From the NCBI GenBank assembly GCA_018260285.1, contig JAGLBH010000011.1, positions 1,703 through 22,203 on the forward strand: a stretch of 20,501 bases of DNA, written 5' to 3'. Origin of the DNA: Arthrobacter sp. GTDB taxonomy: Bacteria; Actinomycetota; Actinomycetes; Actinomycetales; Micrococcaceae. Positions 8,509 to 20,501 of the stretch are shown here, one piece after another; positions within the stretch are counted from its first letter, which is position 1; each line of letters starts with the position of its first letter. The notes beneath the pieces were generated by a model that made no database searches, was not told where the DNA came from, and saw nothing but the letters and a program-made list of their open reading frames with translations. A program made the translations under genes and the position numbers.

Positions 8509-8636
8509 TGCAGACGCGGTCCGAAAGGGCTGCGAATGATGAGGGGGATGCACCAGTTGGGGTGCCCTCGATACGTTCGACCCGTATGTCCTCCACCAAT
8601 GAGAAAAGGCTCCCGAATCAATCGGGGGCCTTTTCG
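8509..8636 (+). ncRNA. Candidate small structured RNA (unknown family)
   Basis: No convincing reading frame fits, but the sequence folds well by hand. A 5' hairpin has GTCC-GAAA-GGGC (8519-8530) with GCA/TGC below it. A possible three-way junction is closed by GGGGGA (8543-8548) with TCCTCC (8589-8594) and holds two hairpins: GCACC/GGTGC (8550-8565) and ATACG/CGTAT (8571-8587). An intrinsic terminator-like hairpin follows at 8603-8635. A promoter sits directly upstream, which predicts a transcript of roughly 127 nt. It lacks the GGTCAGGTCCGGAAGGAAGCAGCC-like core of SRP RNA (only a faint similarity near 8518-8533), is too short for tmRNA, and matches no riboswitch I know. Expression is inferred. 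Confidence 0.5.
8603..8635 (+). terminator. Intrinsic terminator-like hairpin
   Basis: A 14-bp stem pairs 8603-8616 with 8622-8635, with one T:G wobble and a 5-base loop. The lower stem is A-rich on the left and T-rich on the right (AAAA at 8604-8607, TTTT at 8631-8634), so it could act in both directions. It ends the RNA candidate on the + strand. Confidence 0.65.
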
Positions 8637-8991
8637 CTTGTCCGGCCAGGCGTCCGCGCGCGGCCCTGGCCCCTCTCGAGATGAGCCCCGAGATCCTGCA
8701 TGCAGACCGCTGTGGCGGCGTTCTCTGCAGTTCTCTGCAGGGGCTGATCCAGATCACGGCCGCCTTCTCCAGATCACGGACACCTTCGGCCCGATTTCCG
8801 CGGATCCGGGCTTGAAGGCGGCCGCGACCTGGACAAGACGGCCGGTTTGTGGATGCAGAGGATGGAGGCAGCGCTCGTCGGAGGCGAATCGGGCGTGACT
8901 GCGAGGGGCCTCGGGAGAGGTGGTCTTCAAGAACCCCGAGGAATGCGGGCACTGGCATACACACGCTGTCGCCCTGCACCGGGCCTTTCTC
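8637..8991. other. Gene-free stretch, nothing recognised
   Basis: No reading frame here has a credible start, codon pattern or known motif. Minor structure is visible: a 7-bp hairpin GGCCAGG/CCTGGCC (8644-8671), a tandem duplication TTCTCTGCAG (8721-8740) and a repeated CCAGATCACGG (8749-8759 and 8769-8779, 20 bp apart). These look like small local duplications. I see no transposase fragment, attachment site or broken gene. Confidence 0.5.
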
Positions 8992-9060
8992 TACACCCCC
9001 GGATACTCCATAAACCCCCGAAATTTCAAGGGGTGTAAGGAAAATATAGGGGTGTAATGC
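8992..9060 (+). repeat. Composite hairpin repeat, copy 1: head
   Basis: TACACCCC (8992-8999) pairs perfectly with GGGGTGTA (9030-9037). The same GGGGTGTA recurs at 9049-9056, so two alternative pairings are possible. The loop holds TAAACCCCCGAAATTTC (9011-9027). This head aligns without gaps over 80 bp (8992-9071) to a second copy starting at 20313, with about 59 identical bases by hand count. It lies beyond the 3' end of glnR, in a region with no gene. Orientation is given relative to the head-then-array order. Confidence 0.75.
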
Positions 9061-9063
9061 CTT

Positions 9064-9180
9064 GCGCCCCCGAGAAAGCGGGGGTGCTGCTTGAGACGCC
9101 CCCAAGAAAGCGGGGGTGCAGGCGGATGCGCCCCCGAGAAATCGGGGGTAGAGCCAGAGCGCCCCCGAGAAATCGGGGGT
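9064..9180 (+). repeat. Composite hairpin repeat, copy 1: four-unit hairpin array
   Basis: Four units, each a CCCCC run, a short A/G-rich loop and a GGGGG run, begin their C runs at 9067, 9099, 9131 and 9162, giving spacings of 32, 32 and 31 bp. Units 3 and 4 are seven-bp stems CCCCCGA/TCGGGGG closed by GAAA. Unit 1 is a CCCCCG/CGGGGG stem extended by GCG/TGC. Unit 2 has AAGAAAGC in the loop. The 13-14 bp between units is not conserved. The period is close to three turns of DNA. Open frames read through it on the minus strand (HPRFLGGA-like peptides) are artefacts of the repeat. Confidence 0.8.
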
Positions 9181-20222: not shown

Positions 20223-20310
20223 TGTGCTCTGGGGAATTGTGTCCTGAAGAGACCAGGGGCAGCGGCTGAGCAGCTCGGGCCGGGGAGCGGGCCGCGGGCG
20301 GCCCCTTCGC

Positions 20311-20380
20311 CATAGACCCCCGGAGATTCTCTAAACCCCTCAAATTTCCGGGGGTCTATGGAATCCATGGGGGCGTATGA
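20311..20380 (+). repeat. Composite hairpin repeat, copy 2: head
   Basis: CATAGACCCCCGG (20311-20323) pairs perfectly over 13 bp with 20348-20360. The loop has TAAACCCCTCAAATTTC (20332-20348), matching copy 1. A second partial partner GGGGGCGTATG follows at 20369-20379. From 20313 the copy aligns to 8992 without gaps over 80 bp. It lies beyond the rplL terminator. Confidence 0.75.
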
Positions 20381-20385
20381 CTCTG

Positions 20386-20501
20386 CGCCCCCAAGATCTC
20401 GGGGGTGGATCGGAGAGCGCCCCCAAGAATGCGGGGGTGGAGCGGAGAGCGCCCCCAAGATCTCGGGGGTGGAGCGGGCCGGGCCGCCGTTGGCCCCCGA
20501 G
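20386..20501 (+). repeat. Composite hairpin repeat, copy 2: hairpin array, runs off the window
   Basis: Three CCCCC/GGGGG hairpin units have C runs starting at 20388, 20420 and 20452, exactly 32 bp apart, with loops AAGATCTC, AAGAATGC and AAGATCTC. GCCCCCGAG at the window end (20493-20501) looks like the start of another unit at a wider spacing. The inter-unit sequence is similar (GGATCGGAGAG, GGAGCGGAGAG), more so than in copy 1. Confidence 0.8.

Follow-up and report, generated by a model that had tools for sequence, protein, structure and literature searches.

Dispersed nested palindromes with outward hairpin arrays in an Arthrobacter genome, a possible offshoot of a terminator-like gene-end class

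Two similar stretches of palindromic DNA, each outside genes and each trailed by a row of small hairpins, raise the question of whether they belong to a genome-wide family kept for its folding and, if so, of what kind. Both lie within a 20,501-nt stretch of Arthrobacter DNA (the window, part of contig C22), taken from an assembly of 1.98 Mb in 395 contigs that is 82% complete (labeled G000 in coordinates). As read from translations, the gene content of the window is ordinary housekeeping, with what are presumably murB-, asd-, dfr-, thyA-, ppk- and pfkA-like genes, secE, nusG and rplK/A/J/L; a tRNA-Trp is also present. Gene calls, here and in relatives, came from a codon-usage script trained on the window genes. 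Copy 1 sits between what we take to be an mshD-like gene and a winged-helix gene, and copy 2 comes after a gene that is presumably rplL (Table 1).

Table 1. Positions of the palindromic features in the window.
Feature	Position	Strand	Basis
Head of copy 1, 69-bp nested palindrome	8990..9058	-	alignment A1 row 1; model match G000:C22:10692-10760
Array of copy 1	9067..9179	+	four outward CCCCC-8 nt-GGGGG hairpins
Head of copy 2, 69-bp nested palindrome	20311..20379	+	alignment A1 row 2; model match G000:C22:22013-22081, 71.2 bits
Array of copy 2	20388..20469	+	three outward hairpins
Second dispersed doubled-arm palindrome family, copy	8748..8853	+	17 places in the source genome

The two copies and the size of the family

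Aligned without gaps over 80 bp (8992-9071 with 20313-20392), the two copies share exactly 59 identities, as the original prediction had counted; 19,825 random pairs of 80-bp windows have a mean of 22.6 and a maximum of 43. Both copies lie outside called genes and run into hairpin arrays on the same side, again as described, with four hairpins in copy 1 (9067-9084, 9099-9116, 9131-9148 and 9162-9179; first gap 10 nt, then 14, 14 and 13 nt) and three in copy 2 (20388-20405, 20420-20437 and 20452-20469; gaps of 14 and 14 nt), the contig ending 32 bp past the last of these. Both regions fold better than their dinucleotide shuffles (z = -6.5 and -5.3). The letters singled out as a compensatory change were read correctly (C at 8994, G at 9035, G at 20315 and C at 20356). 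The stem drawn for copy 1 has 8 contiguous bp (8992-8999 with 9030-9037), and that of copy 2, put at 13 bp, is actually 15 bp long (20310-20324 with 20347-20361).

With copy 1 as query, a similarity search returned 75 matches in the source genome, and the surrounding stretches yielded an ungapped alignment of 39 heads (A1). The covariance model built from this alignment, and hence from this genome only (R1), finds 42 full-length and two partial heads in the source genome, a minimum, with 150 of 572 first-look candidates scored; of these 44 sites, A1 omits three found later and the two partial ones. The proposal of a genome-wide family is thus borne out, and the case in which just two copies exist falls away. 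The head of copy 1, being a palindrome, matches the model on both strands (74 bits minus, 61.4 bits plus). Some copies are cut off by a contig end or a run of N, and several heads are local duplicates (L011, L028, L030 and L045), so the copies are not independent. Contig breaks fall in or close to heads and arrays, which suggests that the repeat limits the assembly and that its copy number is underestimated. Those that end in this way are C22, C48, C62, C65, C69, C88, C317, C339, C362 and C368; ten contigs were counted whose end is about 100 bp or less from a head or array, the window's contig among them.

Searches of general collections gave no match to the family. Rfam matched neither head nor array at E values up to 1, phage, plasmid and viral records contained no match to the element, and the exact 23-letter core pattern was absent from 84,980 named species, each represented by one genome in a set from which the source genome was possibly left out. 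A DNA search of 59 genomes, including the source, returned one 24-bp match in one other genome. At the level of DNA similarity, the head sequence family was therefore seen only in the source genome among the genomes searched.

The window also holds a copy of a second dispersed family, a palindrome of about 106 bp in which each arm consists of two tandem 20-bp modules. It was absent from four relatives, and six of its 17 copies neighbor a head at a distance of about 65-130 bp, always on the side that has no array. Weak, far sub-threshold Rfam microRNA matches at 8756-8845 probably reflect the hairpin shape of this second family alone.

Anatomy, covariation and strand

The head is a 69-bp palindrome in which column i pairs with column 70-i (majority consensus CCTACACCCCCGGATCTTCCATAAACCCCTTGAATTTCCGGGGGTGTATGGAATATCCGGGGGTGTAGG). 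It is nested, in that two C-runs, one outer and one inner and spaced by 19 bp, are mirrored by two G-runs, and its outer and inner arms are alike at 13 of 18 positions when the majority consensus is compared by eye. Across the 39 aligned copies, 21 of 69 columns are invariant, mainly those of the four C- or G-runs. The consensus carries CTAC at one end and GTGTAG at the other, with the tail GGGGGTGTAGG.

Hairpins of the pattern CCCCC-RAGAANNY-GGGGG, with 18-nt cores, accompany 37 of the 43 copies examined (1-8 hairpins each); hairpin length is partly a product of the script, which favored 18-nt hairpins among overlapping candidates. They stand on one side of 31 heads, on both sides of 6 and on neither side of 6 (range 0 to 8 hairpins), and this last figure may be 5, since three late finds (L239-L241) were coded by hand and L239 was coded bare despite a CCCCC...GGGGG hairpin on its left. 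Of the 44 sides counted, 41 have their first hairpin at a distance of 9 or 10 nt from the head. Among the 79 inter-hairpin gaps shorter than 30 nt, 52 are of 14 nt, 24 of 13 nt and three of 24 nt, giving a period of 31-32 bp; seven longer gaps span 39-54 nt, some of them the length of one lost unit. In nearly all arrays, whichever side they occupy, the purine-loop strand points away from the head, the exceptions being one hairpin at L021 and two at L045. At L017 (2463-2640), the array unit is 42 bp instead of 32, a lengthening by roughly one helical turn that is seen in three gaps.

The pattern has 95 matches in the source genome (two sites match on both strands), none with the reversed-pattern control and none in 10 relatives. 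Lone matches, with no model head within about 1 kb, occur at C15:5680, C371:3458 and C342:4018 and may be orphan modules. CRISPR arrays have unique spacers of about 25-40 nt; such an array is ruled out here by spacers of 13-14 nt. The 14-nt spacers are 0.41 identical between loci, about the level set by composition, and 0.57 identical within one locus, which indicates that tandem duplication plays a part. Hairpin cores are 0.82 identical between loci and their loop positions are conserved, and the flank sequence after the array stems varies. The near-fixed spacing and the conservation of the loops fit selection by a bound protein as well as they fit drift after tandem duplication.

Covariation is found in the outer palindrome of the head. 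In A1, 87.4% of its cells are paired, as compared with 84.7 in shuffles, two-sided changes number 43 versus 28.9, and covariation is 0.131 versus 0.097; none of 500 shuffles reaches the paired fraction, the two-sided count or the covariation, and sliding abolishes the signal, in a test where relatedness of the sequences alone can exceed shuffles. Two further measures do not rise above shuffles, namely pairs with a two-sided change (8 versus 8.0) and further pair types (29 versus 27.0). Whereas the arms of the outer palindrome covary, changes in the stem of the original prediction, which joined the outer left arm to the inner right arm, fall without regard to pairing (15 two-sided cells versus 13.5 shuffled, a count reached by 182 of 500 shuffles). 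The compensatory pair itself loses its force across the family: columns 5 and 46, which hold it in copy 2, pair in 16 of 39 copies with 14.4 expected, and columns 65 and 24, which hold it in the flipped orientation of copy 1, pair in 16 of 39 with 14.7 expected. The inner stem of the head shows no covariation among the 39 copies, and neither do the stems and flanking positions of the array hairpins, in which C5 and G5 are nearly invariant. At inner-stem columns 24 and 46, just 6 of 39 copies are paired as compared with 14.1 expected, so that complementarity seems to be avoided there. An alignment across genera contains 293 two-sided cells, versus 103 in shuffles and no more than 70 in slid versions, a total inflated by an alignment that was fitted to the structure and that holds both strands of each palindrome.

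The choice of strand bears on whether the folded molecule is RNA or DNA. The 22 codirectional heads show no G-U preference on the sense strand (26 G-T and 29 A-C, p = 0.79), and orientation by array gives 32 G-T and 55 A-C, which if anything favors the strand opposite the outward one. Arrays run in the sense direction of transcription in 12 cases and antisense in 7. The lack of a G-U preference and the mixed array direction point to a DNA-level feature, or to a palindrome kept by replication, rather than to one fixed RNA. Of the two possibilities raised in the original prediction, a mobile element still fits the data; a structured RNA is weakened by the lack of a G-U preference and of a clear orientation to genes.

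Placement among genes in the source genome and its relatives

None of the 43 elements examined in the source genome lies inside a called gene. Their gaps are codirectional in 22 cases, convergent in 11, divergent in 2 and at a contig edge in 8; the corresponding baseline, a small set of 38 gaps that includes the window, has 26 codirectional, 4 convergent and 8 divergent. Heads lie within 100 nt of a stop codon in 16 of 33 cases, versus 12.3 expected within the same gaps, and 13 of 22 codirectional heads are nearer the upstream stop. Within gaps of the source genome, head placement is close to random. Viewed from the genes, an element follows 35 3' ends, and in 25 of them it is no farther than 150 nt away.

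Terminators of the usual hairpin-plus-T form were sought in the same gaps. A separate one is present in 10 of 30 element gaps, and the scan overlapped 6 of 35 elements. In a second scan that included the element, a terminator was found at 6 of the 25 ends that have an element no more than 150 nt away, versus 3 of 59 ends without an element, and substitution of heads for terminators is thus unsupported. The head consensus has no T-tract after its stem. On the plus strand of the window, a hairpin-plus-T terminator-like site at 8603-8635 shares a spacer with copy 1, and no plus-strand gene is called directly ahead of it.

Relatives carry the same shape in other letters. R1 matches 12 genomes, the source included, out of 245 in this bacterial family, and its matches in relatives reach E values as low as 1e-10. 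A second model (R2), also trained on some of the relatives' palindromes, has matches in 4 of 38 genomes at E 1e-5 (the source, G001, G012 and G020), in 5 of 7 chosen genomes, and at E 1e-6 in 21 of 240 genomes and 9 of 32 genera, the source again included. Absences in these scans are soft: the R1 scan of 245 genomes and the R2 scan of 240 scored about 20 candidates per genome under strict filters, and the R2 scan of 38 scored at most 134 per genome. With R2, the congener G001 has six sites and G002, identified as Arthrobacter sp. UM1 (3,699 bp, 100% identical; NCBI lineage Micrococcaceae), has none. The geometry of the class is a C-run, 13-14 nt, a C-run, about 10 nt, a G-run, 13-14 nt and a G-run; the palindromes found in several other Micrococcaceae genomes share this nesting, and the arms differ by species and are quite different from one another. 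In one copy from G153, 31 of 37 pairs form, versus a shuffle mean of 13.5 and a maximum of 18.

We found that most of the palindromes examined in relatives are close to gene ends. In 29 of 36 copies a stop codon is no more than 40 nt away, where random placement would give 14%; the p value of 5e-19 overstates this difference, since orthologous copies and local duplicates are among those counted. Moreover, 17 of 36 lie between convergent genes, as do 17.6% of random placements. The 36 are part of 53 sites in six genomes (all of those in G001, G205 and G153 and some of those in G069, G020 and G112), and several are orthologous among G020, G069 and G112 or are local duplicates. Some of the relatives' copies carry a short T-run, and two in G001 (L283 and L285) stand, by eye, beside a separate canonical-looking terminator. 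Arrays of CCCCC hairpins are absent beside the relatives' palindromes, with one weak hairpin near 18 copies. At L286 (4774-4980) of G001, a nested palindrome is followed by tandem copies of its own right half, possibly an independent start of array growth. The syntenic gap between the mshD-like and winged-helix genes measures 962 bp in the source genome versus 283 and 327 bp in two congeners, and the covariance model has no match in that gap of either congener.

Origin of the repeat and comparison with known systems

Taken together, our results support a model in which a terminator-like class of gene-end palindromes has, in this lineage, turned into a dispersed modular repeat of the BIME or BOX kind. 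We put the probability of this reading at roughly 0.57. In relatives, the palindrome would act as a two-way transcription terminator or as a block at the 3' end; in this lineage, one version of it would have started to multiply at scattered loci and given up its close tie to gene ends, in keeping with copies that are many, fairly homogeneous in sequence and loosely placed within spacers. New copies and longer arrays probably arise through single-stranded or cruciform hairpins, with arrays perhaps growing by replication slippage and dispersal perhaps due to an enzyme acting in trans. Copying through hairpins, as proposed, would preserve palindromic DNA and its C- and G-runs rather than one RNA strand. 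We infer that the heads may descend from the gene-end class because they share its geometry and because R1, built from the source genome only, recognizes the relatives' copies; the similar geometry could also have arisen independently, as the models favor nested geometry by construction.

The original prediction had suggested looking for a RAYT-like transposase, the Y1 HUH type. The Pfam Y1_Tnp domain (PF01797, RAYT-type) has no match in the source genome, nor in any of seven relatives that are 95-100% complete and six of which carry the palindrome class; as a positive control, the same search found matches in 5 of 14 genomes. The source assembly, 82% complete and broken at repeats, may be missing enzyme genes as well as copies. 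The longest word shared by paired flanks averages 4.76 nt, versus 4.79 nt between unrelated flanks (34 pairs, from elements without two-sided arrays), in a test for target-site duplication that duplications of a few bp would escape. A DNA-uptake signal was also considered and rejected: ACACCCCCGG occurs 0 times in 73 kb of sampled contigs with 0.24 expected, and ACACCCCC occurs 4 times in 73 kb with 2.25 expected.

These observations bear unequally on the other readings. It is very unlikely that a RAYT transposase spreads the family as a REP or REPIN, or that a DDE transposase spreads it as a classical MITE; although the elements are extragenic, palindromic, clustered and dispersed, and the head ends in CTAC...GTAG, the absence of Y1_Tnp from the source genome and seven relatives weakens the RAYT version, and flanks share no more than unrelated ones do. 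That chance low-complexity hairpins or an artefact produced the family in a G+C-rich genome can practically be dismissed: C/G-rich arms and a fragmented assembly might suggest it, yet the 95 matches as against none for the reversed pattern, none in 10 relatives and 42 full-length heads in one genome rule it out. A version independent of RAYT, in which a geometry-conserved Micrococcaceae palindrome class is recognized as folded DNA by a protein which maintains it near gene ends and which, in this lineage, multiplies it and extends it into phased hairpin arrays, strikes us as doubtful.

Continued service at gene ends is also unlikely, namely that the elements are functional two-way terminators or stabilizers of mRNA 3' ends in the source genome too and are kept for ending transcripts. 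The relatives' attachment to stop codons (29 of 36), the element within 150 nt of 25 of 35 3' ends and the convergent excess over a small baseline (11 convergent and 2 divergent, versus 4 and 8 of 38 baseline gaps) favor this account, whereas the near-random placement (16 of 33 versus 12.3), the separate terminators in 10 of 30 gaps, the failure of heads to replace terminators (6 of 25 versus 3 of 59 ends) and the lack of both a T-tract and a sense-strand G-U preference weigh against it. Decidedly unlikely is a binding platform for a chromosome-organizing or regulatory protein, made of phased hairpin sites about three helical turns apart and nucleated at the head. Such a platform would explain why 76 of 79 short gaps are 13 or 14 nt while spacer sequence is free between loci, and why loop positions and 21 of 69 head columns are conserved, but it has no candidate protein, the number (0 to 8) and side of the hairpins vary, and the near-fixed spacing may just record tandem duplication. 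The gene-end class turned dispersed repeat thus remains our preferred reading.

The comparison with published systems draws on parts of the four papers cited. BIMEs consist of extragenic REPs that are regularly spaced, alternate in orientation and are associated with RAYTs (PMC2817692). The family described here resembles them in its extragenic palindromes, regular arrays and scattered loci, and differs in that its hairpins nearly all point outward from a larger head at 13-14 nt spacing and that no Y1 transposase was found in the genomes searched. A REPIN is two inverted REPs forming one hairpin, with highly diverse spacers, and is duplicated by a RAYT (PMC8049555); a long palindrome of inverted modules in many copies per genome is common to both, whereas here the center is fairly conserved, the arms are doubled, arrays are attached and, again, the search for Y1 came back empty. 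Single REPs are high-copy palindromes of 20-40 bp with a GTAG or CGTC tag beside the stem, as compared with a 69-bp head at 44 sites that ends in GTGTAG/CTAC and array cores of 18 nt with variable flanks.

In the available text of PMC3733652, one REP class is tied to RAYTs and the other has no known enzyme; the latter, CGTC-tagged REPs, are short stem-loops seemingly without a dedicated transposase, so a family without a RAYT is not new in itself. No large head is described for them in that text. The phyla for which it lists REP-type repeats include Proteobacteria, Cyanobacteria and Chloroflexi, and the word actinobacteria is absent from the available text of both PMC3733652 and PMC2817692. 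BOX elements of Streptococcus pneumoniae have boxA and boxC ends, a variable number of tandem boxB units and target-site duplications (PMC3049150). They share with our family an end module plus a variable number of tandem units, and differ from it in that the arrays here flank a single palindromic head, on either side or on both, and no second end module was seen. SPRITE, from the same species, is a dispersed terminator-like hairpin enriched at 3' ends, AT-rich and with a U-rich tract (PMC3049150); it recalls the gene-end enrichment of the relatives' palindromes, whereas the head here is nested, lacks a T-tract and has arrays.

Judged by titles and the openings of abstracts, a literature search found no description of a head whose arrays run outward at even spacing, although one may still exist in print. 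Actinobacterial palindromes with directional, even arrays and no Y1 transposase in view raise the question of what else makes such repeats, and the gene-end shape in relatives may supply a natural series from gene-end signal to dispersed repeat, in which the domestication or escape of a terminator-like hairpin becomes testable. Among known systems, REP/REPIN, BIME, BOX, SPRITE and MITE each fail or leave open a defining feature, and each has part of the anatomy that this family brings together.
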